This document shows, piece after piece, positions 3,842-62,549 of a stretch of 64,000 bases of DNA; position 1 is the first letter of the stretch, and each line of letters begins with the position of its first letter. Both the position numbers and the translations under genes were made by a program. This stretch comes from Liolophura sinensis. Lineage: Eukaryota > Mollusca > Polyplacophora > Chitonida > Chitonidae. The notes under the pieces are model-generated. The model worked only from the letters and a program-made list of their open reading frames with translations. It did not search any database and was not told the origin of the DNA. The DNA lies in assembly GCF_032854445.1 (NCBI RefSeq), contig NC_088304.1, positions 35,697,551 through 35,761,550 on the forward strand. Reading direction: 5' to 3'.

Positions 3842-5234
3842 GGTGTGAGCAAGATTCTCCGAAATCCAGGAGAAATTTTGACAGATTTCATCCAAAATTC
3901 GGCCTGTCAAGCCACCGTGTGTCCTTTCTCGTTCTCACGCACTCCCGCCGGTCCGCTGCCACCAGGGGGCACTGGTACCTATGTCAGCTGTGAGACGACT
4001 TTTTCCATTGGTCAAATCCAGCTCGAGTTAAACAGCTTACGGTTGGTTTGAGGGTAAATATTATAATTAGCCATGCGGTTAATGTTTACGTGCTTGGAAA
4101 CAAAGATATCATGACAGGCGAGGCTGGAAATCCCCGCTGTACATCATGCATAGTTTATTATATGTATATGGCTTTGTTACAGGCCATCTGTAACAAAGTA
4201 ACAGACCTGTAATAGTCTTTTCCGTTTCCCTGAATACAAGAGTTTTTCATATACCTCGGGTCTAGTTTGATTACTCAGGTCTAAGGATGGCTTATTATTT
4301 ATTTATTTATTTGATTGGTGTTTTACGCCATACTCAAGAATATTTCACTTATACGACGGCGGCCAGCATTATGGTGGGTGGAAACCGGGCACAGCATGGG
4401 GGAAACCCATGACCATCCGCAGGTTGCTGACTGGTTGCTGATCTTGACTGTCATATACTGACGATGAAAATCAAACAAGCGACGTAAAGCCAGAATCTTT
4501 CATCTATTAAAAATGTGGATAATATGAACCATTCAAATTATCTATATCGGCTTATATACTAGATAAAGAATTATTGTGAACACAGAGGCTAGCTACTTGT
4601 ATCACTGCCGTTTATCTGCCCTTTTAACCCAGTTATGTGTATTATTCGGACATCATGAATCTCGTAGACTGGAACATGGGACGTTGTTGCTTCGGTGCAG
4701 CATGAGCCATACGATTTTCCTTTAAACGCCGATAACACAACAGGGCATATATTCATATGTTTTCCAACACACTACATACAGCAACATCCACTACTATCAG
4801 CTTTTTTTTGTTGTTGTTGTTGTCTTTGTTTTTTCTTTTGTAGCCATTGACTACTCACTGGACATTTAATTGCATTTCTGACCACGTTTGTAGAATGCCC
4901 CGTACATTGCCATGTGGTCTTGGCGTAGAGGGCTGATAGTATTACAATGTTGTACCACCATAATGGCGCTAACACAGCAGTCGTGTGGCAGCTAGAGTAG
5001 TCGCCCTTGAACTGGGTTATGCGCGTGTGTGACTTTGGAATTTGCTTGAGGCTACTAGTCATCTATGGTTAGATTCCACGGGTTTCATGCTGTACTCATG
5101 AGGCCAGATTTTTCATTGTCAATCATAGTGACATGTAGAAAAACCAGATAAAACACGCCTCTCGGCCAGAGCCAAACATTCACACGATACACTCTAACAA
5201 TGACCGGTAATCTGTTATTTAGAACAGAAAATAT
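3842..5234. other. 5' flank of the nucleoredoxin-like gene and intergenic DNA
   Basis: Apart from the SINE fragment at 4293-4441, no gene is visible. The stretch just upstream of the nucleoredoxin-like start (3900-4050) is GC-richer than its surroundings and may hold that gene's promoter; no TATA box was recognised. Confidence 0.35.
4293..4441 (-). repeat. SINE family 1, 5'-truncated
   Basis: On the minus strand this copy retains the AATA tail, the tail block (ttgattggtgttttacgcc as read on plus) and the conserved core. It lacks the tRNA-like head. Confidence 0.85.
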
Positions 5235-5346
5235 GTTGTCTAAGTGATGCTAGGATGTATTCTGTTATTATAACACAATATTCTATCAATTTCAACGTAA
5301 TACCACGTTATTCTAATAGAATCGTTATGTTGAATAAAAAAGAATA
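5235..5346 (+). mobile_element. Left arm of a MITE-like element
   Basis: The arm starts gttgtctaagtgatgctagg and is followed by a block ending in gttgaat. It aligns along about 110 bases with the reverse complement of the complete element at 60387-60571, including its ~30-bp terminal inverted repeat. The interior of this copy is replaced by the minisatellite at 5347-6310. Confidence 0.65.
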
Positions 5347-6310
5347 TTTGTGTTGCATAGAGTATGCCAAGTATGTGTGTTGTATAGAGTACACCAAGTA
5401 TGTGTGTTGTATAGAGTATGCCAAGTATGTGTGTTGTACAGAGTAGGCCTATATCAAGTATGTGTGTTGCATAGAGTATACCAAGTATGTGTGTTGCATA
5501 GAGTATACCAAGTATGTGTGTTGTATAGAGTATACCAAGTATGTGTGTTGTATAGAGTATATCAAGTATGTGTGTTGCATAGAGTATACCAAGTATGTGT
5601 GTTGCATAGAGTATACCAAGTGTGTGTGTTGTATAGAGTATGCCAAGTGTGTGTGTTGTATAGAGTATACCAAGTGTGTGTGTTGTATAGAGTATACCAA
5701 GTATGTGTGTTGTATAGAGTATGCCAAGTGTGTGTGTTGTATAGAGTATACCAAGTGTGTGTGTTGTATAGAGTATACCAAGTATGTGTGTTGTATAGAG
5801 TATACCAAGTATGTGTGTGGCATAGAGTATACCAAGTGTGTGTGTTGTATAGAGTATACCAAGTATGTGTGTTGCATAGAGTATACCAAGTATGTGTGTT
5901 GTATAGAGTACACCAAGTATGTGTGTTGTATAGAGTATGCCAAGTGTGTGTGTTGTATAGAGTATACCATGTATGCGTGTTGCATAGAATATGCTAAGTA
6001 TGTGTGTTGTATAGAGTACACCAAGTATGTGTGTTGTATAGAGTATACCATGTATGTGTGTTGCACAGAGTGTACCAAGTATGTGTGTTGTATAGAGTAT
6101 GCCAAGTTTGTGTGTTGTATAGAGTATGCCAAGTATGTGTGTTGTATAGAGTATGTCAAGTATGTGTGTTGCACAGAATATGCCAAGTATGTGTGTTGTA
6201 TAGAGTATGCCAAGTATGTGTGTTGTATAGAGTATACCAAGTATGTGTGTTGTATAGAGTATACCAAGTATGTGTGTTGCATAGAGTGTACCAAGTATGT
6301 GTATTATAGA
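5347..6310. repeat. 27-bp minisatellite, about 36 copies
   Basis: The unit is tgtgttgtatagagtatacc plus aagtatg, with scattered single-base variants (cat/tat, aca/tac, gcc/acc). Because 27 is a multiple of three, several frames stay open through the array on both strands (Cys/Tyr/Val-rich or His/Thr/Tyr-rich strings); these are not genes. The array sits between a MITE left arm (5235-5346) and sequence resembling the other arm of the same family. Confidence 0.95.
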
Positions 6311-8761: not shown

Positions 8762-11700
8762 ATGGCTGGAAAAGATGTTTTGAAGGCACTCTGGGCAATA
8801 CGCGGGCTAATAATGACATTAGTTACGCCCCTTGTCTTATTGCCTGCCATTTACTATATAGAGGGCGATGTAAGTATAGAACAAGAAGTAAAACAGGTAC
8901 AGTCCTGTTCATCCCTACAGTGCACTTATCGCTCCCTATCCTCTTTTTACATGCCTGCTACCAGCAGACTTGCTTGGCGCACAAAGCCTGTGCGATGCTC
9001 GTTGGATTGTTTGTTATTAGCCTCATCACTAATGTCTGTGAACAGAATTTTCCAATTAAAATGTTTCAGGTGTCCTCTGGAATGCTGTGCATACATTATA
9101 TAAAGCGAATGTATAATTTGTATTAAGTATAAGTAGAGACAAAGGTTGAGGCAGAGTGACTGTGTTTTCTAGCAACTCTTCCCGTATGATCACCGTGACC
9201 CCTGTGACGTTGGCGTTGTTAAATCTGCAAGTGGTGGCAGTGATGTAAAGCGAACCTAGGGGGCGGAGCATATGCCGTAAGGAGTATGAAAAGGACCAAA
9301 GTGTAGTTTGCTGCAACAGGTCAGCATGAAAATGAAAAGTTGAAATAAAGCCTAAAATGAGGCAATTTGACGAGAGGCCGTATTTCACGGGTTATGTGTG
9401 ACCAATTGCCAATAATCACATTGCTTTCTCTGCTCTGCTTTTTCTCTCTATATTGTTAGTCGTCTATATTTATGGCCACTCTGTTACGTTAACGTAACAT
9501 GTTACAGGCGGGAAAGTGCGCGTACGCCACGCTGATGATGGCGGTTTTCTGGATCCTGGAGGTGTTTCCAATCTCCGTAACCTCTCTACTTCCGGTGGTG
9601 CTATTCCCCATCTTAGGAATCCTCTCCGCCAGGGACGTATGCGCCCAGTACGTCAAGGTAACCATGGGCATGGTGATGCTTGAGGGATCATCACGTCTGA
9701 GGACGGACATAACAATCTTCTTTGTTCACCTTATCTGCACACTAAAATCTGATTCAGCACAGTTCATGGCTTTAATGGTGTATGTACTACAGAATTAATG
9801 AAGGGTTTTTTGTCATAAAATCATGAATCGGTTGTTGAAGACAATAATCTACATGTATGCTGTGCGCAGGTATTCTTCTTCTCTGCTCTTATCTGACTGC
9901 CGTCATAAACATATAAGTGAAATAATTTTGACTTCGACAAAGAACACCACCCAAAAATAATTAAATGAATACATTGTGCTTCTGGGTTTAAGTGGCATAA
10001 TTTAAGTTCGCAGCAGAGCAGATGTCTGCATTCTTATATCATGTCTTTATAGGCCCCCCGGAGTTCATAAGTCTAATGGATGTCGTGAAATTTATTTAAA
10101 CTGAATAATCGGAGATGAAGCTCCTGTTTTGCAGTCTGAGAATGTTGTGTACGAGAATAATCTGTGCGTCAAACTGGTGTGATCATACGCCAGAACAGAG
10201 AGCTGAGTTTGTTTTCCCCAAATCTGTTGGACAGGACTCCACCTTTATCGTCCTGGGCATCTTCTGTGTGGCAGCAGGGGTTGAGCGATGGAACCTTCAC
10301 AAGAGATTAGCACTCAGGATACTACTGATCTTCGGTACAAAACCCCAATGGTGAGCTGTAGTCTAAAATGTTACCATATACGCAATCATCAAGTCAGCAA
10401 CCGTTATGCACAAGGTAAGCTGCAACACATTTCTTGCTATGTGTTTCTCGCTATGTTTACTTCTGTATTCAGGTTGATCTTGAGGAGCACGTGTTGGTGT
10501 GGCACGTGTTTTTCTCGATGTTTGTCTCTGTATTCACTTTCATCCTGGGCTTGTTGGTGTGTAACGTGTTTCACGCTATGTTTACTACTGTGTTCAGCTT
10601 GACTTTGGGCATAATGGTGTGTAACGTATTGCTCTCTATGTTTACTTCTGTATTCAGGTTGATCTTGGGCCTGTAGGTGTGTAACGTATTGCTCTCTATG
10701 TTTATTTCTGTATTCAGGTTGATGTTGAGCCTGTTGGTGTGTAACGTGTTTCTCGCCATGTTTACTGCTGTGTTCAGGTTAATCTTGGGCCTGTTGTTGT
10801 GTAACGTATTGCTCTGTATCTTTTCTTCCCTGTTCAGGTTGATCTTGGGCCTGTTGGTGTGTAACGTGTTTCTCACTATGTTTACCTCTGTATTCAGGTT
10901 GAAATTGGGCCTGTTGGTGTGTAATGTATTCCTCTCTATGTTTACTTCTGTATTCAGTTTGATCTTTGGTCTGTAGGTGTGTAACGTGTTTCTTACTATG
11001 TTTACTTCTGTATTCAGGTTGATGTCGGGTCTGTTGGTGTGTAACGTATTGCTCTCTATGTTTACCTCCGTATTTATGTTGATCTTGGGCCTGTCTGCGT
11101 GAAACATATTGCTCTCTATGTTTACTTTTGTATTCATGTTGATGTTGGTTCTGTTGGTGTGTAACGTATTGCTCTCTACGTTTACTTCTGTATTCACATT
11201 GCTCCTGGGCCTGTAGGTGTGTAAGGTGTTTCTCGCTATGTTTACTTCTGTGTTCAGGTTGATCTTGGGCTGTTTGTGTGTAACCTATTGCTCTCTATGT
11301 TTACTTCTGTATTTAGGTTGATCTTGGGCCTGTTGGTGTGTAACGTGTTTCTCACTATGTTTACTTCTGTATTCAGGTTGATCTTGGGCCTGTTGGTGTG
11401 TAACGTATTGCTCTCTATATTTATTTCTGTATTTAGGTAGATGTTTGGGCCTGTTGGTGTATAACTTGTTTCTCGCCATGTTTACTTTTGTGTTCAGGTT
11501 GATGTTGGGCCTGTTGTTGTGTAACCTGTTTTTTCCTATGTTTACTTTTGTGTTCAGGTGGATGTTGGTCCTGTTGGTGTGTTACGTTTTTTCTCTCCAT
11601 ATTTATTTCTGTATTCAGGTTGATGTTGGGCCTGTTTCTGTGTAACGTGTTTCTCGCTGTGTTTACTCTTATATTCAGGTTGATGTTGGGCCTGATGGTG

Positions 11701-14700
11701 TGTAACGTGTTTCTCACTATGTGTACCTCTGTGTTTAGGCTGATATTGGGCCTGTTGGTGTGTGAAATGTTTTTCACTATGTGTACCTCTGTATTCAGGT
11801 TGATCCTGGGCCTGTTGGTGTGCAATGTGTTTCTTACTATGTGTACCTCTGTATTCAGGTTGATCCTGGGCCTGTTGGTGTGCAATGTGTTTCTCACTAT
11901 GTGTACCTCTGTGTTCAGGTTGATCCTGGGCCTGTTGGTGTGCAATGTGTTTCTCACCATGTGTACCTCTGTATTCAGGTTGATCCTGGTCCTCTTGGTG
12001 TGTAATGTGTTTCTTACTATGTGTACCTCTGTATTCAGGTTTATGTTGTGTTTGTAGGTGTGTGAAATGTTTTTCACTATGTGTACCTCTGTTTTTAGGT
12101 TGATCCTGGGCCTGTTGGTGTGCAATGTGTTTCTCACTATTTGTACCTCTGTGTTCAGGTTGATGTTGGGCCTGTTGATGTGTAATGTGTTTCTCACTAT
12201 GTGTACCTCTATTTTCAGGTTGATGTTGGGCCTGTTGGTTTGTAATGGGTTTCTCACTATGTGTACCTCTGTGTTTAGGTTGATGTTGGGCCTGTTGGGT
12301 TGTAATGTGTTTCTCACTATGTGTACCTCTGTATTCAGGTTGATGTTGGGCCTGTTGATGTGTAACTTGTTTCTCACTATGTGTACCTCTGTATTCAGGT
12401 TGATGTTGGGCCTGTTGGTGTGCAATGTGTTTCTCACTATGTGTACCTCTGTGTTCAGGTTGATGCTGGACCTGTTGGTGTGCTATGTGTTTCTCACTAT
12501 GTGTACCTCTGTATTCAGGTTGATGTTGGGTCTGTTGGTGTGTAATGTGTTTCTTACTATGTGTACCTCTGTATTCAGGTTGATCCTGGGCCTGTTGGTG
12601 TGCAATGTGTTTCTCACTATGTGTACCTCTGTATTCAGGTTGATCCTGGGCCTGTTGGTGTGTAATGTGTTTCTTACTATGTGTACCTCTGTATTCAAGT
12701 TGATGTTGGGTTTGTTGGTGTGTGAAATGTTTTTCACTATGTGTACCTCTGTATTCAGGTTGATCCTGGGCCTGTTGGTGTGCAATGTGTTTCTCACTAT
12801 TTTGTACCTCTGTGTTCAGGTTGATGATGGGCCTGTTGGTGTGTAATGTTTTTCTCACTATGTGTACCTCTGTGTTCAGGTTGATGTTGGGCCTGTTGGT
12901 GTGTAATGTGTTTCTCACTATGTGTACCTCTGTATTCAGGTTGATCCTGGGCCTGTTGGTGTGCAATGTGTTTCTCACTATGTGTACCTCTGTGTTCAGG
13001 TTGATCTTGGGCCTGTTGGTGTGTAATGTGTTTCTTACTATGTGTACCTCTGTATTCAGGTTGATGTTGGGCCTGTTGGTGTGCAATGTGTTTCTCACTA
13101 TGTGTACCTCTGTGTTCAGGTTGATGTTGGGTCTGTTGGTGTGTGAAATGTTTCTCACTATGTGTACCTCTGTATTCAGGTTGATGTTGGGCCTGTTGGT
13201 GTGTAATGTGTTTCTCACTATGTGTACCTCTGTATTCAGGTTGATGTTGGGCCTGTTGGTGTGTAATGTGTTTCTCACTATGTGTACCTCTGTATTTAGG
13301 TTGATGTTGGGCCTGTTGGTGTGTAATGTGTTTCTCACTATGTGTACCTCTGTGTTCAGGTTGATCCTGGGCCTGTTGGTGTGCAATGTGTTTCTCACTA
13401 TGTGTACCTCTGTGTTCAGGTTGATCTTGGGCCTGTTGGTGTGTAATGTGTTTCTTACTATGTGTACCTCTGTATTCAGGTTGATGTTGGGCCTGTTGGT
13501 GTGCAATGTGTTTCTCACTATGTGTACCTCTGTGTTCAGGTTGATGTTGGGTCTGTTGGTGTGTGAAATGTTTCTCACTATGTGTACCTCTGTATTCAGG
13601 TTGATGTTGGGCCTGTTGGTGTGTAATGTGTTTCTCACTATGTGTACCTCTGTATTCAGGTTGATGTTGGGCCTGTTGGTGTGTAATGTGTTTCTCACTA
13701 TGTGTACCTCTGTATTCAGGTTGATGTTGGGCCTGTTGGTGTGTAATGTGTTTCTCACTATGTGTACCTCTGTATTCAGGTTGATGTTGGACCTCTTGGT
13801 GTGTAATGTGTTTCTCACTATGTGTACCTCTGTGTTCAGGTTGATCCTGGGCCTGTTGGTGTGTAATGTGTTTCTCACTATGTGTACCTCTGTATTCAGG
13901 TTGATGTTGGGTCTGTTGGTGTGTGAAATGTTTCTCACTATGTGTACCTCTGTGTTCAGGTTGATCCTGGGCCTGTTGGTGTGTAAAATGTTTCTCACTA
14001 TGTGTACCTCTGTGTTCAGGTTGATCCTGGGCCTGTTGGTGTGTAATGTGTTCCTCTCCATGTGGATGAGTGCGGGGGTAGCAGTGATGATGATCCCAAT
14101 TATGAAGACCCTGGTGGACAAACTGAATGAGGCGGAGATTTCCTCGCCAGGTTGTTATTACGTTTTTTGTTTTATGTCAGACCCAAGTGTTCATGTAGGT
14201 ATATATTTAACACGTTAAACTTCAGCGCTCACTCCACTCACCTGAGTTTAGCTAGACGTATGTGGAAATTTAAAAATATCAAAATTTCAATGTTGCCTGA
14301 ATGTATAGTAATTGAAATGTAGCTAACAATATAAGCCGTGGTGCACCATTCCCAAGCTCTAGTTTTACCAAATCAAAATGAACGTTTGTTTTACATGATT
14401 TACAGATAAACATAAAGGAGTTGAGTTTGATTTAGTATAGCCAAGGCAGTCCAGAAAATGATACAGTGTAACACATATGTCTGTTTGACTTGCAGATATT
14501 GAAATGTCAGATATTCCTGAGGAGGTGTCTCCAAACGGAACAGAGGACACGAAGTCATCACTTGATCGGAATACTGATCCGCATGGGGCTGAGAGTTCTT
14601 CAACACAATCACGGTATGTGTCAGTAGGGTTAGGTTTTGTGTACCTCATGTCATTGTACCCCACTAAACGAAAATTGAAAGATTTGTATTAAAGTATATA

Positions 14701-17700
14701 TGATCAAACATATACCCCCACTGAACCATCGAACAATATATCATGTTAGAAAGGAAAATAGATACAAAAAACTCCTCGATCACACATTGTCAAATCCAAC
14801 CTGATTGATGAACTGGAAATGGTCCCTAAATAATTGGTATGATGTTGTAGTGATGCATAAAGAGTGTAAAACAAGTACCATTTCAAATCTGTGATATGAC
14901 CCGGCCCGGTTTTAATCCCATGTGTTCCGATGTCGAGGCAGAAGCTGGAACCGTTAGGCTACCGAGGCGGTAGCTGTGCATGATGTGTTTGGATATCTTT
15001 ATTTTTTTGAATGATTCAACATCGTTGGACATAGGCTTGTTTTAACATCGGGAATTGAAAATATGTATGCTTTGAATTTTTTACAGGTCTGCTTCGGACA
15101 CAAACGCGGAGCTTTATAAAGCGCTCAGTCTGTGTATAGCTTATGGAACATCTTTGGGGTCGACTGCCACTTTGACAGGTGGTCCTGTCAATCTGGTTAT
15201 GCAAGGCCTGGCGGATCAGTAAGTTACCGCAATTATACCACAGAGATCACAGAAGTAATTATAAGATCTCCTTTACCTTGATGGTTATAATTCGTAATGA
15301 AAAGTAATGACATGTACCTGTGTCTCACCTTCTATCTCATCAGGTTTTTCGAGCGTTACGGTTTGACGTCGGGTGTGACATTTGGTAACTGGTTTGTGTA
15401 CGCCTTCCCCATGGTTGTTATCATCACACTGCTCACCTGGCTGTGGTTTATCGTCCTTTTCCTCAAATGCAGGTTTGTCCATGTCTGCCTTATTCATTTA
15501 CCTTCCTTAGACTTGTATTTTGTGGGCAAAGCATGGGTTAGGTATATTTGAACACAATAGAGGATGATATGTTTATCAAAAGGTACAAGAAAATAATTCA
15601 GTGAGTGTGCAAAATTCCATCGAGTTTTCAAAATTAATTTAGCAAATCTTCAGCAGAGAGCACTTGTTGACCCGTTATATAAAAGAACTACGGTATGTAT
15701 TTGATTTGTTTATTTGATTGGTGTTTTACGTCGTACCCAAGAATATTTCACTTATACGACGGTTGCTAGCATTATTGTGGGAGGAAATCGGGCAGAGCCC
15801 GGGTGAAACCCACGACCATCCGCACGTTGCTGACAGACCTTCTCACTTACTCCACAGTATGTAGCAGGGTTACACAGTAGGCCTGTATACATATATGGTA
15901 GCTAAGATTCGCATCCAATCAGTTTTGCTTGTACTACTTATGCACATGTACCACTTATTGTGCTTGTGGATGTGCACATTTTGTACACAGTCCATTTTTA
16001 TAATGCGTGAACATACATGGACCCTTCAAGAAATATCCATCAACATGATACTGTCACCGCAGGTAGGCCTCCTCAAAGTTCTATTCTTACAGAGGCTGTA
16101 TCAGACGAGGGCATAATCCCGACGCTAGGGCAGAGGCTGAAGAGCGAGCTATGAAACACATCCGGCAGGAATACGCCGATATGGGATCCATCACGTGAGC
16201 TTTAGTTGTTCACATATTCGATACATATTTAATGGCGTACTCATTAATTTGAGACCAGTGTGTCTTTTGACGAAATATATACGGTATGTTTCCGATTCAG
16301 CTTTGAAACCTGTTGTTTTCGCTCGATTAAAAACTTGTTTTTCTGGAAACCTACAAACTGTAGCTCTTTGAAGTTAGTCAGGAAAATTCTCGGCAATGTA
16401 ATCTTGCACAGTATTGAACTTTGTTCTTCAAGGTCGCTTAGTTTTTCGGACATATTGGATTTTCGAATCTTTAAAAATGTTCTCAAAAATCAATGGTCGG
16501 ATCCTTCGAAAGTATGGCAGTCATGTAGAGCAATACTACTAACAGAAAGATTGAAGAAGACATTAAAATCTGTTAAAAAACTTAAGAATTTAAAGGTTTT
16601 AAATTTGACAGTAACCGTGATGTATTCCGGTGTATTTCGGGCCTGTCATTCCGAATCTCCTTTTGTTTTTTGTCTAAGGACGTGTCTTTTTGAAAGGTAA
16701 TTAATTTTGGTGTTTGGCAGTTACGTAATTTCTGTCCTTGTCAAAGGAAATCTGTTAGAGCTCGAACTTTGTAATTTGCACCAAATTGTAGCCCAGAATA
16801 TGTTCCTTCCGCGGTTTCTGAACACATTTGAGCTACGATAAAAAATTTTAATAGACATCTCCCTATTTCAGAAATAGAAATTTTGGCTCATTCACTAAAT
16901 CTAAACCTATGGACAATCACATCTATTTGCACTTGCCAGATTTCAATGGACAAGCGTCATTGTCATGTCGCAGACTGCTCTGTTACTGAAACAGAAGCTG
17001 AATTCTATTCCAGCAGTCTACTTGGAAGCTCTGAAACTCCAAGAAGTTCTATTTATTCTCTTTCTGTAATATGCTTCTTTGTTGCAGGATGGATTTCCAC
17101 CATTCTTTTATCTAGTGCTGCTTCACAGAGACGACTTACAGAAAGGAAATAAGTCGCCCCGCCCGAGCCATTATACTGATACGGGTCAAGAAGTCGTTGC
17201 ACTATCTCCTTCAAGCTAAACGCCAAGCGAGGAATTACAACTTCCTCTTTTAAAGTCCAAGGTGTCACTCGACCCAGGATTGACCCTGGATCTACCGCTC
17301 CAGTAGTAGAAAAAGAAAACAATCGCTGGAAACCCTCGTTCGCTACATGTATATGTGCAGGTTGAATTAATTTAAAATTTGCCGTGTGTTAACATGCACC
17401 ATTCTTACCGACATGCCACATTATACATTACACTTTACTTACAGATATCCGGAAATCATTGTGTTGACAGATCTCGTCATATTAATTCTTCTCTACATCA
17501 CAAAAGATCTGTACCTCGCTCCTGGCTGGGACAGCGTTTTTAAAAAAGGGTAGGTCTATGTGCTCATAATTGTCAAAAACATTTTGATAGTTCCCCAAGT
17601 AGCACTTTGAGAAACTTTATATGTAATGTTTATAAGCGCATGTTTTACACTTATCAAAATGGAAAATGCCCATTTTTTAAATTGAAAATGGGCGCGATTA

Positions 17701-20700
17701 AAAGTGTCAGTTTTGATTTTACCATCATGCATTAACAGTAAAACGACATGAATGACGTCGTAGTTGTTCACGTCCATTGTGCATGATCGCCTAGCCATTT
17801 TATTTACCATCACCCACTTCGCCATCACCAGTTTCATCGTCATCACCGCCATCGCCATATCATCATTCTCATCATCATCATCATCATGACAATCGTACTC
17901 ATCATCATTTCAATAATTACTGACAATAGTATATGGCCATGCCATGATTCGTTTCTTTAGTTTCCCCTCGGTGATTTATCTTCAGCTATGTTGGTAGTTC
18001 TGCGCCCACCATTCTGGCCGCCATGGTTCTCTTCGTCATACCAGCCTCCTCTCCTAGAGAGTTCATCAACAAGAGAGGTAAGAACTATAATTATGGTATA
18101 GTCCATATAAATTTATTTCCATATAAAACATTTACGTAGAATTAACTTACATGACTGTGAAAACTTTAATGATAATTTCACATTGTGTGGCAAAAAGGGT
18201 GTTCCCTGGTATTTACCAAACGGCATAAGCAAACCTATGAAAACGCCAGTTTAAGGGACAACAACTAATTTTAGGATTGGCCTCAATAGCGCTTGGCGTT
18301 CAGCATGAAAGAGATAGTGCAACGACTGGTTGACCCGTATCAGTATGATGGCTCCGGCGGGTCCGCTTACTTGCCTTCGGTAAGTCGTCCCATTGAAGAA
18401 GCAATAGAGACTGTAAAAAAAAAACTTTAGAATTCGGTTCTGCAACAAGGAGGCACATTACATGCATTCTAAGGACCACTTCGTCGTGATATGTCTGTAT
18501 TTGTTAAATACGATGTTATCCCTCAAGCACTCACTCACTCACTAATTTTAGGCCACGTTGCAGACTGCACGAGTAGTATACATGAACGTAGTATAAACAT
18601 GTTTAACTTTTAATAAAGGTTTTTCCTTATTTCCCCCAGAGTTCACCCCGATAATAACCTGGTCCGATGTGACGAAGACAGTGCCTTGGGGTGTCATCTG
18701 GTTATTAGGGGGAGGCTTTGCTCTGGTCCTCGCTTCTCAGGTATGCAGTGGTCGTGTTGACTTCAGAGTTGAAAACAGACATGATTCCAGCATACATGTA
18801 TTTTGTTAACACCTAGATCAACACCTGCTTGTATGTTGTTGAACCCTGTGTAAAGCCTGGATTGGTGGACCACTTCTCGTGTCCAGTTTGTTGAAAACCG
18901 TACCAGCTGGTGATACTATTTACGTTTTTTGCTTACAGAGGTCTGGTCTGTCCGCATTAATCGGAGGCCAGTTCTCGGTGTTCTCCGGATTGGAGCCCTG
19001 GGTGATGACATTGATACTGAGTGCTATAACGGCTTTCTTGACAGAGTTCACCAGCAACGCGGCCACCATCACGATGCTGGTGCCTATTGTCGGCGAACTG
19101 GTGAGCAAAATGCTGGAAATCACAGCCAAACTTCCATCGGATACTGTCCTGTGGCACTGAATACAAGCCGCATGGTGCCAGACTGTGGGGCACACAACCA
19201 CCCAGTACGGAGTACATTGTAGCTACATGCATCACGTGATACATGTAATTATAGAGCACGTGGTATGTCACTTCACGGGGACTCCTTAAATGGATAAAAC
19301 AGAATGACCATGTAAAATGTCAGGGCGAATTCAAGAACGAAGGCTATTTCGTTGAATCTTTATCATATATTTGTCTAATTCCACAAACAAAGAACGGGGG
19401 GTGGGGGGGGGGGGGGTGATTCTTGGTGGTATACACATCTGCACTTTCAAAGTACTGATGTGTTTGTATTGATATTGTGTGGTCAATCTTTTTCTCGTAA
19501 ATCGACACGGTACCGATACTGCACATTGTACAGTGTGCAGTGCTAAATACATGCTCAGTTGTAAGTTCAGGGATATAAAAATGAATAAATAACTCGTGTA
19601 TTCTAACAATGCACAGAGCCCGTGTAGAACAAAGCCTTACCAATTAGGAGTGTCACTCATCGACGTGTAAACTGCATTTTTCATTAGACACCAGGGCCAA
19701 GTTGTCGTTGAGGGGAGGGGGTGACATAATAGCCACGTGACAGGACTTGTAATTTGATAGGCTCTTGTCAAACGGTGAATAATTAATGGCGAGAAACCGA
19801 AACGAGCTTTCCATAAGCTGTTACCTGCACGTCATTCAGTTCCGTGCTGTTCATCGTTCTTATAGCGGAGCTTGTCACACGTGACAAATTAGTTGAAGTG
19901 TGTTGTTTGTGAGCCACTTTATTCATGACAGAATCGTATGTCTAAACTGCTGTTCATTCTCGTATCTTTAGTAGGAGACGTAAATTGAGTCAATCGAGTA
20001 AAACACGATGTATTGCTGGATTTGTTTACTAATTATCACACTGTCTACGCTGCTCTGGTTTTTCGCGATCTCCATACTGTACATAGTGTTTTAGTTCATG
20101 TGATCAATCTACTCAAGCCAGGGTTCAGATTTCCGAACGGAGCATGCTCTCGATATCGAAAATAACAGATGTACAGTAGATTTTTTTTTTTTTTTTAATT
20201 GGTGTTTTACGCCGTACTCAAGAATATTTCACTTATACGACGGCGGCCAGCATTATGGTGGGTGGAAACCGGGCACAGCCCGGGGGAAACCCACGACCAT
20301 CCGCAGGTTGCTGGCAGACCTTCCCACTTACGGCCGGAGAGTGTACAGTAGAGCATGTCATTACCGGGCTCACTGTTTGTAATGTTTCCACCATGGTCCA
20401 CGTCAGCAAATATCTCCTACACTGGGCATTGACCATCACAGAGGCAACACACGACACTATAACATCTACAAACCTCCATGGTATATCATAGCTACATTAA
20501 ACTACCAAGTGTTTCGAATGTGCGCCGGGAAGCTTGTGATCGGTTCTGCAGGAGTGCATTGGTTTTGTACCGGGTTCCTCTTTCTTTCCGCCATCTATAA
20601 ATTTCACCGCCATGTGAAGTGCTCACAAATTCTTGACTTGACGTTAAAAACATCATATGAATGAAGAAACGAAATTATTGGCAAATATACATTTTCTGTC

Positions 20701-22230
20701 CCGTGTTCAGACATATATACCTTCTGAAAAATCCGACTAATCGCTGAATATTATCTAAAGGCCTGACTTTCGACCTATCTATTCAAAACCTTGGGGAAGG
20801 TAGCTAAAACAGAGAATACAAACACGAATCAGGATAGAGGTCGCTATAAATCACGCATAAACCCTACCGGCGTTTTACGTGTTGATAAATTATTGACTTT
20901 AAAGTCAATAATTTATCAACAGATAAAAGTCAGATAAATGAATGAACGAAATGACTAGTGAAAAATACATTTTCAAAACCGTCTTTGTTTTATTTTAGGC
21001 TATCCAGTTAAACTTACATCCCATGTCGCTGATCTTCCCAATCACCATGGCGGGGAAGTTTGCGTTCATGACACCCATAGCATCTCCTCCTAACGCCATT
21101 GTGTTCTCCATGGGAGCCCTCAAAATCAGGGATATGGTGAGTGAGGACATGTTATCACAATGTCGTGATAATATCTTAACATTCTGGTAGAAGTAAAGTC
21201 TGTGAATAGTTGATTCTGGCTTTACATCACCTCAATTGTACATCAATCCTATTGCGAGATCAGCTATTGTTATGCGTCAGTATGAAGACTTTATTTATTT
21301 ATTTATTTACTTGACAGGTGTTTTACGCCATACTCAAGAATATTTCACTTATACGACGGCGGCCAGCATTATGGTGGGAGAAAACCGGGCCGGGGCCGGG
21401 GGGAAACGCGCGACCATCCGCAGGCTGCGGTCAGACCCTCGCACGTACGGCCGGAGAGGAAGCCAGCATAGGCTGGATTTGAAATCACAGCGACCGCATT
21501 TGTTGGAGGTCAAGATATTGTGTTTTAAGGTATCCACGCGTACTTGTGGCTCTTCCTGATAAATACGGTCTGGCAAGGTAAGGTAACAAAACAGCAAAAA
21601 AAGGGGCTACTCTCTGACGGAACTAATGTAACATTAGGCTCAGCTATTAGTTCCTTGTTTACTTTTTGAGAAGATACCGCAGTGTACGCATGTTCCACGT
21701 GACCGTTGCTGTCCAATAAAATTCACGGTATTTAACGGTAATTCCGCAACTATACTATTGTAACTCGATATGTGGACCATGTTACACTTAGCGTATCTTT
21801 GTCTGTTCCCGTGGTGGAAATTTCTTTGGTAAAATTGTTGAGTTGACAGGACCTCAGATGTGAATGCTGATCCGAAAATCTTTCCTTAAAACTTCACGAT
21901 CAGTTTTACAAAATGATTTGTCAGACTGTCAGAAATATTCATGATGCTGAAATTAAATGTTATCCAGTGTCTTACCTGCTGTTACCTTCCTACGTCCTTT
22001 TCCGAGCTAATTAAGTGAATACATTTACCGAGGTGAAAATTAACCCGTTCTGTTTTTAGGTCATTGCAGGATTTGTAGTCAACCTGATCTGCCTGCTGGT
22101 GATGAACGTAGGAAGTCAGACCTGGGGTAGGGCATATTTCGGCTGGGACGTTTTCCCGGAAGCCTTGAGGGTGAACGGGACTCTCACTGACACCACAGAA
22201 AATCACACGCTGATTGGCCAGACGGCTTAA
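8762..22230 (+). CDS. SLC13-family sodium-coupled di/tricarboxylate (or sulfate) cotransporter, 14 exons
   Basis: Predicted 584-aa plasma-membrane cotransporter. Coding exons: 8762-8869, 9508-9657, 10235-10350, 14020-14150, 14496-14613, 15087-15218, 15344-15472, 16093-16194, 17445-17549, 17986-18077, 18640-18740, 18939-19100, 20999-21136, 22060-22230. All junctions are GT-AG with matching phases and total 1755 nt. The start has a good context (gccATGG). Family landmarks: FWILEVFPISVTSLLPVVLF (exon 2), GVERWNLHKRLALR (exon 3), LSMWM then S142-A143-G144 (exon 4), an acidic Ser-rich cytosolic loop (exon 5), YGTSLGSTATLTGGPVNL (exon 6), VPWGVIWLLGGGFAL (exon 11), TEFTSNAATITM (exon 12), FAFMTPIASPPNAIVF (exon 13). 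The C-terminus has two N-glycosylation sequons (NGT, NHT). The first SNT sodium motif is changed to SAG and a usually conserved Ser is Lys502, so substrate and ion coupling are uncertain. Length and exon conservation argue for a functional gene. Confidence 0.93.
9100..9420. repeat. Interspersed repeat family 3, copy in SLC13 intron 1
   Basis: The phrases gagacaaaggttgaggcag and ggtggcagtgatgtaaagcg recur in the same order at 30225-30600 and 48345-48670. The end (ggccgtatttcacgggttat) also resembles 39510-39590. There are no coding signs. The class is unknown: no terminal repeats or A/B boxes were recognised. Confidence 0.6.
10440..14019 (+). repeat. 60-bp tandem array (about 60 units) derived from the exon 4 splice acceptor
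   Basis: The unit contains, in order, tttctcactatg, tgtacctctgtattcag and gttgatcctgggcctgttgg plus tgtgtaatg. It matches the last intron bases and first ~45 coding bases of SLC13 exon 4, which directly follows the array. Units before about 11650 are more diverged (tttacttctg, taacgt). Later units are nearly uniform and include a 7-unit higher-order duplication (12901-13320 and 13321-13740). One unit near 12800 is 61 bp. From there to exon 4 the plus frame is open in the exon 4 frame, encoding a 20-residue hydrophobic repeat (LMLGLLVCNVFLTMCTSVFR). The minus strand is also open over long runs. Neither frame is likely to be an independent gene. Confidence 0.95.
14020..14150 (+). CDS. SLC13-like gene, exon 4 (seed of the 60-bp array)
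   Basis: The exon begins immediately after the last array unit's tgtgttcag and completes the split Trp codon left by exon 3 (TG|G), continuing LILGLLVCNVFLSMWMS. It encodes the first re-entrant hairpin region of the transporter and the start of the following cytosolic loop. Its donor (CCAG|gttgtt) is weak. The start is ambiguous in principle, because about 20 upstream copies of the same acceptor would also splice in frame. The 14020 start is chosen because it gives the family-typical spacing between exons 3 and 4. Confidence 0.88.
14151..15696 (+). other. SLC13 introns 4-7 region with exons 5-7
   Basis: Exon 5 (14496-14613) encodes a hydrophilic loop. Exon 6 (15087-15218) carries the LTGGPVNL loop, where the family has LTGTTPNL. 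Exon 7 (15344-15472) carries a membrane segment (WFVYAFPMVVIITLLTWLWF). No repeats were recognised in these introns. Confidence 0.8.
15697..15848 (-). repeat. SINE family 1, 5'-truncated, in SLC13 intron 7
   Basis: The tail block (ttgattggtgttttacgtcg) and core are present on the minus strand. The copy ends near gacagaccttctcactta, without the tRNA-like head. Confidence 0.85.
16195..17065. other. SLC13 intron 8, left part
   Basis: No repeat copy was recognised. Frames of 146 aa (16260-16700, plus) and 80 aa (16244-16486, minus) are open but resemble no family I know and lack conserved motifs. They are treated as chance. Confidence 0.4.
17066..17330 (-). repeat. SINE family 2 (type b), in SLC13 intron 8
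   Basis: Read on the minus strand it contains the B-box-like gggtcaatcct, then cttggcgtttagc, gacccgtatcagtataatgg, gtaagtcgtctctgtgaagc and tcctgcaacaaag. The same order occurs at 50610-50962 and 18276-18545. Confidence 0.8.
17855..17910. repeat. CAT/ATC trinucleotide microsatellite
   Basis: Interrupted run of (atc)n including tcatcatcatcatcatcatg, in SLC13 intron 9. Confidence 0.9.
18276..18545 (+). repeat. SINE family 2 (type b), 5'-truncated, in SLC13 intron 10
   Basis: Starts near gcgcttggcgttcagcatga and runs through gttgacccgtatcagtatga, cttcggtaagtcgtccc and ctgcaacaaggaggcac to the tail cactcactcactcac. The tRNA-like head is missing. Confidence 0.85.
19101..20179. other. SLC13 intron 12, left part
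   Basis: Contains a G-rich run (19396-19416: six G, one T, fourteen G) that may be hard to sequence accurately. No other element was recognised. Confidence 0.6.
20180..20345 (-). repeat. SINE family 1, 5'-truncated, in SLC13 intron 12
   Basis: A T-run tail, attggtgttttacgccgtac, the full core and body up to cttacggccggagag are present. The tRNA-like head is absent. Confidence 0.88.
20880..20921. repeat. 42-bp perfect palindrome in SLC13 intron 12
   Basis: The arm tgttgataaattattgactt is followed by t, and the second 21-base arm is its exact reverse complement with no spacer. It lies about 80 bases upstream of the exon 13 acceptor and could extrude as a hairpin in DNA or RNA. Confidence 0.95.
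21287..21515 (-). repeat. SINE family 1, long copy in SLC13 intron 13
   Basis: Tail (TTTA)n, gtgttttacgccatactc, core, body and the complement of the B-box region (tgaaatcacagcgaccgcat) are present. The outermost part of the head is missing. Confidence 0.88.
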
Positions 22231-27401: not shown

Positions 27402-28720
27402 ATGGGACTCCGACCTATCGTCCTCGTAATGATCTTAGTCTTGCTGGGACTAGGAGCTTTATGTGTAAGTGAATGGAGAACTGAGGGCCGGCTTGAACAA
27501 AGCCGTTCCAACGTTTTCGTACATGTCACTGCCTTGATCAATCAGATAGGTTGTGTAGACCATATGTGGGCATAGTTGTTACGTTACAGTAATGTTAAGA
27601 TTGCTTCGTGCAAGTGGACGTATGAGGTGTATAATTATGTGGTACGTTTTCATAAAATTTTATTCTCTCTTGAGAGCATTTGTTGATGTATAAGCACATG
27701 TGGCACAGCATGGTGGTAAATACGCCGTCTCATGCAAAATACTTGAACACGGTATGATTCGTAATGCTAAAGTTTGCGTCTATCTCTTAGGTTATATATA
27801 CAAGAAGTTCAAAACTGCAACCAATTTGGATCACACCCACGAGATATCGGGATCTGAAATATACGCTAAGGGACCATCGTAATTTTACCATCGTGTCGGC
27901 CTACTTTAACCTGGGAACGCTAAGGAAAGGCTTTAAAACGACGCTAAGTCCAGGACTCTACCGACAGTGGGCTTCATTCTTGACTAGGATACTTAACCCC
28001 TTGGTCTTCTACACCGACGACGTTGAATTCAAAGCTCTCATTGAATCTGGCCGTGCACATTTACCGAACCTCACCAAGGTAATATATGTTAAAAAGAGAG
28101 AAACTTTCTGGGCCTTCAGCTTAAGAGACAAGATACAGAGAATTTATGACGACCCCAAATATCCAAAATATTATCCGGGCACCGTCTCGGCAGATTATAG
28201 TTGTGTTCAACACGTAAAGTATGAGCTTATCACTGATGTGTTGAACAGGAATATTTTCCCCGCTCGCTACTACGCATGGCTGGATGCGGGCTACTTCCGT
28301 GGGATTTCAGGCTCAAATGCCCAATACCGCCTTGACGTCCCACATGATTTTGACGATTCCAGAATCGCCTACACTGAAATTAAGAGGCCTAAAAGTAAAC
28401 TGTCTTTCCATTCAGTTATAGTCAGAAATAAACTCTGGGTCGGTGGCGGTATGTTCATTGGTACCGCACAGAAGTTACGTGGATTTTTCATGCAGTACCA
28501 GAGAGCTGTGGAACTGTCTCTTCGGCTCGGCATAATGAATGTAGACCAGACGATACTGTGTGCGATGTTTACTGAGAACGGCCGGAAACTCGTGCAGCCA
28601 TCTGTGGAAGTACAACCGTACAGACCACCAAAGGGACACAACCCGTGGTTTTATCTAGGATATCGCTGCCTCTGGCGTGTCAAGTCCACAAGAGACCAAG
28701 ACATCGGTACTATGATTTGA
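27402..28720 (+). CDS. Type II membrane protein with an HtrL/YibB-like domain, 2 exons
   Basis: Exons 27402-27464 and 27791-28720 join in phase 0 (TGT|gtaagt ... tctcttag|GTT) to encode 330 residues. The first exon is almost entirely a signal anchor: MGLRP then a hydrophobic run of about 16 residues (residues 6-21), giving a short cytosolic tail and a lumenal catalytic-type domain, as in Golgi enzymes. The domain opens with NFTIVSAYFNLGTLRKG (about residue 52) and continues with PLVFYTDD, a tract rich in aromatic residues, YYAWLDAGYFRG, VGGGMFIGTA, MNVDQTILCAMF and a C-terminal PWFYLGYRC. This order matches the HtrL/YibB family of bacterial cell-surface polysaccharide loci, also known in some invertebrates. 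The TDD and WLDAG motifs suggest a glycosyltransferase-like fold; activity and substrate are unknown. The start has a good context (ataATGG). A separate 5' UTR exon is possible, because an acceptor-like ttttcaag lies just upstream. Confidence 0.82.
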
Positions 28721-60571: not shown

Positions 60572-62266
60572 AGGCTGTTTCCTAAAATTAATAGCTTAAT
60601 TATTAGAATTATTAAATACGTGTGTAAAGTTGTCTGACGTTTCAGGGAGTTTCAGTCACAATAAGATAAGAAAAATGTGGACGGGGAAAAATTAGAAACA
60701 GGGGTCAAACGTCGACATGGGGGCATAGGGCAACTTTACGTAACCTGCACTTAAAAGTTGGGACAAATAATACGAGTTCTGGAACTCCGAATGGAGAAAT
60801 CTCCTCCAAGAAATTCATTCACGATTGTAACAGCGTGATATCCTAAAGCCTGTATAAATCTCGCCGATTGTAATTACGTATTACCTCACTTCAACTCACA
60901 CAATGCATGTATGGTGTTATTACCGAATCGGTTTGTTGTCCGCACATGTTTGTTTGACCGTTATATACCTTGGGCGGTTTACCTAGAATTACATAACCCG
61001 TGTCTGGAGCGTTGTGGTTATTGGTGAACCGACCATCCGACAATTACAGTTTGACAGTGACACTTGAATGTGACCGATGTCCCCTAGTAGGGGGCCATTA
61101 TTCTCAGATGCTACAATCTAAGAATTTACATGACCAGTTAAAATAAAACCCGAAGGCAAGGAGCGAATTCCACCGGTGGCGTTAGACCATTTGTCAACTA
61201 TCAGTGTCGTCGCTGCTCTGGTTTTTACTTGTCATGCATACGGTTGTCTTTTTCTCTTGGTGGCACTATTCTATCAATAACGACCACAAGGCTGCTTCGG
61301 GTAGCTTTACATGAAGAGATTGTGATCAATTGCCTTCGCCGACTACACGCGCGGCTCTTGATGAAGATTGTTCCTTCCTTTAACGCCCGGTTTGAACCCG
61401 AAGTGGAAAGTTCCATTAAAATACTTTTCTGGTTAACGCCGATCTTCGTATTGTAAATTAAAAATACAACGTCTTACTTCAACCAAAATTTATTGATAAC
61501 CTTGTTACCCTCTCTTAAATTTGATGTCCACGAAATATTTATCGGCGCTTTGACCAAATATTGTTGTTCTTATTTTGAAATTTACACTTCTCTGGGGACG
61601 ATTTTCCACTTTACCATATATCCGGTTTATTGGCAAACGATATAACGTATTTAAAACAGCAAGAGTGCTGTTTGTTTTATACCTGTGAACTGGGAAAAGA
61701 AATGTTTTCTTTGATGTTCTTAATGGCAGGTGTCTCCACAATTAAATCGTTAGTACACAGACACAAAACAAGCTGTAGTCAAGCCCAGAACAGAATACCT
61801 CTGTCAAATGGATCTAACATAGAGGGCACTGTGATGTGTCGACAGAACTCTTCCATCAGTAGCAGTGTATAATGGTTATAGCCCTGTAGTCCCCGGTTTT
61901 TATGTGTTGGGTGTTACTTATCCGCTCAATTGAAACTAACTATAGATTCCCTTTAAATGTAAATCCCTAACCTGTAAACCTGATCGTAGACCCAAAAATA
62001 GCTGTTTCATGTACAATATGCACACCCATTACCCGGGATGGCCACGCCACTTAGAGTGATGATAAACACACTGCGACGTGTAATTAAAACTCACTATGCA
62101 CTAATTGTTTGTGTAGAATGGAGACAATATTAGGACAATGTCCGAATACAGAAAATATGAGTGCTTGATTGCTTATAGGGGTGGTTGGGAGGTGGGCATT
62201 CACGCCGTTTTGAACATTGTTTCGGTAATGTCATGCCAATGTCTCGGTTTATCCCGTTATGTAGAT
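60572..62266. other. Intergenic DNA, no gene recognised
   Basis: Frames at 61225-61456 (both strands) and 61505-61872 show no family resemblance. No repeats were recognised. Confidence 0.4.
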
Positions 62267-62549
62267 GACGTATTCATCTTCACAACTGAATACCTGTTCC
62301 CTCTGTGATGATTCATCCGTCTGTCACGGTGTGTCTGTACATTTCCAGTTGACGTATTCATCTTCACAACTGAATACCTGTTCCATCTGTGATGATTCAT
62401 ACGTCTGTCACGGCGTGTCTGTACATTTCCAGTTGACGTATTCATCTTCACAACTGAATACCTGTTCCCTCTGTGATGATTCATACGTCTGTCACGGCGT
62501 GTCTGTACATTTCCAGTTGACGTATTCATCTTCACAACTGAATACCTGT
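62267..62549. repeat. 84-bp minisatellite, about 3.4 copies
   Basis: The unit begins gacgtattcatcttcacaac, with copy starts at 62267, 62351, 62435 and 62519. Copies are nearly identical (one or two substitutions), implying recent duplication. 84 is a multiple of three, so frames are open on both strands; no gene is implied. Confidence 0.95.

Follow-up and report, generated by a model that had tools for sequence, protein, structure and literature searches.

The window analyzed here, 64,000 nucleotides from the chiton Liolophura sinensis (C10:35697551-35761550 of its own genome assembly), contains a gene of the SLC13 family with an intron 3 that consists almost entirely of a 60-bp unit repeated 59 times, each copy reproducing the intron 3/exon 4 boundary. 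The array is genuine and chance is excluded. We consider, with a probability of about 77%, that it is a minisatellite of the type called "mirages" in amphioxus, where minisatellites duplicate intron-exon boundaries (PMC3087553); the copies would be intronic decoys, and the acceptor adjacent to exon 4's own donor would be the one normally used. The assembly was released as L. japonica, the species name being later corrected to L. sinensis (PMC12441733). The order of the mitochondrial genes also resembles that of chitons, and a search for the GFP family, used as a marker of amphioxus, gave no match, as was the case in the controls as well.

The 60-bp array in intron 3

The SLC13 gene is intact: it was modelled as 14 exons at 8762-22230 on the forward strand, with an open frame of 584 amino acids and zero disruptions, the exon ends being predictions placed from the reading frame, the AG/GT dinucleotides and homology. 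The best PDB match of the protein was the Na(+)/dicarboxylate cotransporter 3 (NaDC3, 8uvc; E 7.3e-121). Exon 3 (10235-10350) ends at the donor TG/GTGAGC, where the slash marks the junction, and exon 4 (14020-14150) extends from the true acceptor TTCAG/GTTGAT to a weak donor, CAG/GTTGTT. In the alignment to 8uvc the join between these two exons was ungapped, and each of the nine SLC13 paralogs examined showed a match to exon 4 that started at the identical residue.

Analysis with Tandem Repeats Finder (TRF) delimited the array to 10439-14064 on the forward strand, with a period of 60, 60.3 copies and 87% matches. When the units were walked back from exon 4, 59 decoys were counted (first exon-like base of the first at 10473, of the last at 13960), followed by the true junction at 14020, which closes the walk as the last unit. 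Of each unit, about 45 bp derive from the beginning of exon 4 and the other 15 bp or so from the end of intron 3; in four units the length deviates from 60 bp by one base. The branch-like CTCAC found 22 nt before the AG thus belongs to the exon-derived portion of the unit before it, and the same is true of the authentic acceptor. The sequence-only reading had proposed some 60 tandem copies of this boundary, with the real exon 4 as the last of them, and both points were confirmed by the walk.

The units are not equally diverged. Mean pairwise identity was 0.823 for units 3-21 versus 0.915 for units 22-59, and at 12940-13779 (forward strand) a higher-order block of seven units (420 bp) is present in two copies, identical at 418 of 420 positions. 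More diverged units are found on the 5' side and younger, partly higher-order units on the 3' side. The existence of the array, its origin from the intron 3/exon 4 boundary and this age gradient are direct observations, as are the similar arrays at predicted acceptors and donors elsewhere in the genome. When the genome was searched at the DNA level, the 60-bp unit was matched at the SLC13 intron 3 locus only (one assembled sequence).

Most of the copies look like usable acceptors, as had been claimed from the sequence alone. The acceptor AG is kept in 54 of the 59 decoys, being absent at 10538, 11078, 11138, 11198 and 12699, and a YTNAY motif lies 12-45 nt upstream of 58 of the 60 acceptors. 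For scoring, 69 predicted acceptors of the gene family, 57 of them projected in paralogs and 12 belonging to the window gene, were compiled into a matrix. The true acceptor scored 7.5, a value equalled or exceeded by 51 of the 59 decoys, 50 of which carry the AG.

The claim that the last 20 or so copies are open in the exon 4 frame proved to be exact: 20 of the 59 decoys (12820-13960) read through to the exon 4 donor, and their use would add 20 to 400 residues encoded at 12820-14019 (forward strand). According to the reading frame, joining exon 3 to any of the 39 upstream decoys (10473-12819, forward strand) would lead to a premature stop, which some of them reach after a 1-nt indel. Unlike a coding minisatellite, the array does not maintain an open frame through all its copies, since 39 of the 59 decoys reach a stop and four units carry 1-nt indels.

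Arrays at other predicted chiton splice junctions

Similar arrays were found in a sample of nine 10-kb pieces containing SLC13 paralogs and eight pieces from myosin-head matches, the latter chosen as unrelated genes. Among the paralogs, acceptor arrays were observed at exon 3 of L021 (52 bp x 52.9 copies, truncated where the piece ends), at exon 4 of L028 (126 bp x 6.5) and at the presumed exon 5 of L026 (43 bp x 9.3), an exon set by reading frame only; L028 also carries a donor array at exon 6 (78 bp x 4.7). In the myosin pieces, donor arrays were present in L031 (31 bp x 6.2), L035 (121 bp x 9.0), L036 (82 bp x 12.7) and, at two donors, L033 (66 bp x 8.1 and 31 bp x 18.0), while L034 contains an acceptor array (32 bp x 42.9). 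In L034 the matrix chose the decoy at 2666 as the junction and the reading frame places the true one at 2698; the straddle count is the same in either case. Two further arrays resemble a junction and stand outside the strict set of 10: one at exon 4 of L029 (65 bp x 9.2), which ends 28 bp short of it, and a second, degenerate donor array in L036, which stops short by its TRF coordinates. In an Adh3-like gene (L030), the sole array with at least 3 copies lies away from the exon matches, and no mirage was found.

At 3968-5011 of L036 (G000:C11:2674500-2684400, reverse strand), each 82-bp copy contains ACAG, 48 coding bases and AAG/GTGAGT, so that each could be a potential small exon of its own.

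Of 13 boundary arrays, 4 have a unit length divisible by three, as by chance, and the other 9 shift the frame. In 11 arrays with 229 copies, the cores of the decoy splice sites were intact in 215; two further arrays gave 5 of 6, with the sixth match lying beyond the limits of the array, and 7 of 9.

For the enrichment test, arrays with a period of at least 20 and at least 3 copies were counted, and junctions were predicted by homology and the splice matrix, partly by hand. Of the 148 projected junctions, those of the window gene (25) were excluded, its array being the starting point, and 17 more were dropped by hand as apparently wrong (18, with one put back, in the test restricted to SLC13). 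In the 17 gene pieces, 10 of 35 arrays straddled a predicted acceptor or donor, versus 4.15 by random placement (P 0.003); across settings the ratio to random placement was 2.0-3.5, with P values of 0.0008-0.025. By family, the counts were 4 versus 1.71 expected for SLC13 (P 0.06) and 6 versus 2.45 for myosin (P 0.02). Two exons had been added by hand after the arrays were seen (exon 5 of L026 and one in L036); upon their omission, 7 or 8 arrays remained versus 2.7-4.0 expected (P 0.004-0.025, three settings). The SLC13 paralogs tested alone did not reach significance (4 of 19 arrays versus 1.81 expected, P 0.09). The same holds for a test with conserved segments as exon proxies (6 of 35 versus 6.19, P 0.61), a crude procedure which missed the window's own array and was judged too imprecise. 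Six myosin conserved segments were dropped as low-complexity or weakly supported (one each in L034, L035, L036 and L037, two in L038). Because the junctions are predicted, and partly by hand, these figures are only suggestive of an enrichment of tandem arrays at chiton splice junctions.

The remaining exons of the window gene lie on the forward strand at 8762-8869, 9508-9657 (exons 1 and 2), 14496-14613, 15087-15218, 15344-15472, 16093-16194, 17445-17549, 17986-18077, 18640-18740, 18939-19100, 20999-21136 and 22060-22230 (exons 5 to 14). The window contains other repeats. On the 5' side of exon 1, a 27-bp unit is repeated 35 times (5345-6302), with long stretches open in two frames and no recognised exon there. 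An 84-bp unit present in 3.4 copies at 62266-62549 carries an acceptor-like TTTCCAG, and no coding continuation was recognised in its flank. A dispersed repeat family is suggested by like short open stretches, with VFYA, KNI and IRRRPAL in this order, at 4315, 7372, 20199 and 21315, and a stop-free stretch of 309 codons is found at 27791-28717.

Decoys or working splice sites

From the DNA sequence we infer how the duplication arose, that the copies are neutral and which splice site is chosen. A short stretch across the intron 3/exon 4 boundary would have been tandemly duplicated, and the array would then have expanded by slippage or unequal exchange, a mode of growth suggested by the gradient of divergence and by the duplicated block. 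Only the copy that still runs on into the remainder of exon 4 would have kept its status as an exon, all others becoming part of a lengthened intron. Their splice-site sequences would persist through fairly recent copying rather than through selection. Exon 3 would most likely be joined to 14020 through exon definition, the exon 4 donor being 131 nt away from this acceptor; that an exon is defined by its own donor would explain such a choice most simply, and the nearest in-frame decoys would see minor use at most. The arrays at other junctions are consistent with rare use of decoys: since most of their unit lengths shift the frame and the decoy cores survive, frequent use would be harmful in most such genes.

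Three observations weigh against this reading. The acceptor itself gives 14020 no advantage, as its score is matched or surpassed by 50 of the 54 decoys that carry the AG. Furthermore, the exon 4 donor is weak, with a score of 3.9 versus a median of 8.2 for 62 donors, which places it under their 5th percentile; this weakness is the main doubt concerning exon definition. Finally, a parsimony count gave an excess of synonymous changes of the kind that coding constraint would produce: over all units, 86 nonsynonymous, 55 synonymous and 6 stop-gain changes versus 101.1, 43.6 and 2.3 expected (nominal P 0.025), and for the open block of 20 units, 4 nonsynonymous and 7 synonymous changes versus 7.6 and 3.3 (nominal P 0.020).

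The hint of coding selection given by this count disappeared upon omission of column 55, a strongly homoplastic position with ten changes on the tree (P 0.23 for all units; P 0.19 for the open ones, where 4 of 8 changes were then synonymous). Private substitutions carried no sign of constraint: units 2-39 contained 29 nonsynonymous, 4 synonymous and 2 stop-gain changes versus 26.5, 7.6 and 1.0 expected, and units 40-59 a single private change in total. Coding constraint on the units is thus not established, the young open block being too little diverged to exclude it. Just 0.2 stops were expected in this block, so that its openness carries little weight.

If the in-frame decoys were used appreciably, the array would be a working one and the gene would yield a graded series of transporters carrying between 1 and 20 additional hydrophobic blocks of 20 residues each. 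The scores of most decoy acceptors, equal to or above that of the true one, would allow this, as would the open frame of the last 20 copies, of which 7 of the 11 coding changes deduced by parsimony were synonymous; without column 55, however, the latter argument vanishes, and the youth of the block deprives the open frame of most of its meaning. Moreover, 39 of the 59 decoys end in stops, 9 of the 13 boundary arrays are out of frame, and the SLC13 protein aligns to NaDC3 without insertion at this place, where an extra block would presumably disturb the membrane domain. We regard such a series as improbable. With most decoys stopping, most arrays shifting the frame and coding constraint not established, the insertion of 20-residue blocks into the protein looks incidental. 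The 39 stop-meeting decoys could instead serve as a regulatory attenuator, diverting some splicing to nonsense-mediated decay, the length of the array tuning transporter output. Their number and the normal strength of most AG-bearing ones among them speak for this possibility, which we rate just as low: selection on the decoys was not seen, and arrays at unrelated genes favor a general mutational process over a dedicated switch.

The unit boundary CAG/GTTGAT can also be read as an acceptor and a donor placed back to back, in which case recursive splicing or the removal of 60-nt in-frame mini-introns would eliminate the array stepwise and leave the normal join. As a donor this sequence scores 4.1 (3rd percentile of the 62 donors), slightly above the 3.9 of the true exon 4 donor, and because the latter is so weak the unit cannot be dismissed on score. 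Both values nevertheless lie at the bottom of the donor range, direct joining gives the identical product more simply, and the sister acceptor arrays have different bases after the AG (AG/AGTCC or AG/GCTGA, for instance), all of which makes stepwise removal very improbable. An assembly artefact, either an inflated repeat number or a misjoined array, is equally hard to credit. The assembly does contain a contig (C99) with seven head-to-tail matches to mitochondrial COX1; these are about 15.5 kb apart and probably represent a mitochondrial concatemer, itself an artefact of assembly. However, the HiFi reads averaged 8,347 bp (at 14x) according to the genome report (PMC11068029), more than the 3.6 kb of the array; the units differ from one another throughout, and like arrays exist at other loci. 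Intronic decoys of the mirage type remain the reading that we prefer.

Relation to known systems

In mutually exclusive exon arrays of the Dscam type, every copy is a full exon with its own donor. The chiton unit differs in that it covers no more than about 45 nt of exon 4, whose full length is 131 nt.

The array shares with the intron-gain model of Rogers, based on AG/GT proto-splice sites (cited in PMC3087553), a duplicated segment which contains splice signals and whose copies can be spliced out; unlike in that model, an existing intron seems to have been enlarged and no new intron position was found. The intronic variable number tandem repeat (VNTR) of human ABCA7 is also a tandem repeat within a gene and affects splicing, but the title and the start of the abstract of that report do not mention an acceptor and exon start in each unit (PMC5954066). 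Prawn lectins combine tandem repeats and alternative acceptors within one gene family; in contrast to our array, their 30-33 bp repeats lie inside exon 2 and the alternative acceptor event described concerns exon 5, outside the repeats (PMC7536079). Among other sources, an excerpt of the main text of PMC3902484 mentions no minisatellite, a portion of PMC3862624 deals with simple repeats in introns, and tandem repeats go unmentioned in passages of PMC12005716, found by a search on chiton genomes. In the open-access literature searched, no report of such arrays beyond amphioxus was found.

In a more far-reaching reading, chiton splice junctions would be preferred birthplaces of minisatellites, a transcription- or splicing-linked process continually producing arrays of up to dozens of functional-looking acceptors or donors while introns lengthen and splicing tolerates them. 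We hold this extension to be tentative and rather unlikely. If it were true, amphioxus and chitons would independently share one undescribed mechanism, and every array would be a natural test of how the spliceosome settles on one of about fifty equivalent sites.

An acceptor array of this kind had been thought undescribed in the sequence-only reading; this does not hold, as the amphioxus mirages were already published (PMC3087553). Novelty seems to lie in the phylum and in the abundance, the type of array being known. With the mirages of that paper, which concern the globins BflGb6 and BflGb9 and, as cited there, Adh3, the resemblance is close: an intron-exon boundary is tandemly duplicated, acceptor-side and donor-side forms both occur, AG/GT is found in many but not all units (here, AG in 54 of 59), the authentic exon is the edge copy of an otherwise intact gene, and turnover takes place inside the cluster. 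The differences concern the host, a mollusc instead of a cephalochordate, the unit of exactly 20 codons, the number of copies (59 decoys versus 6 and 3 repeat units in the two BflGb6 haplotypes; PMC3087553) and the fact that the chiton array is known from one assembled sequence. The mirage type is further characterised by undisturbed regular splicing and by an unstable length, between alleles or somatically. Mirages would thus extend from lancelets to a second phylum, where the 10 of 35 arrays suggest that they are common. Such loci would show intron growth caught in progress and would allow the choice of the spliceosome among dozens of near-identical sites to be measured in living genes.

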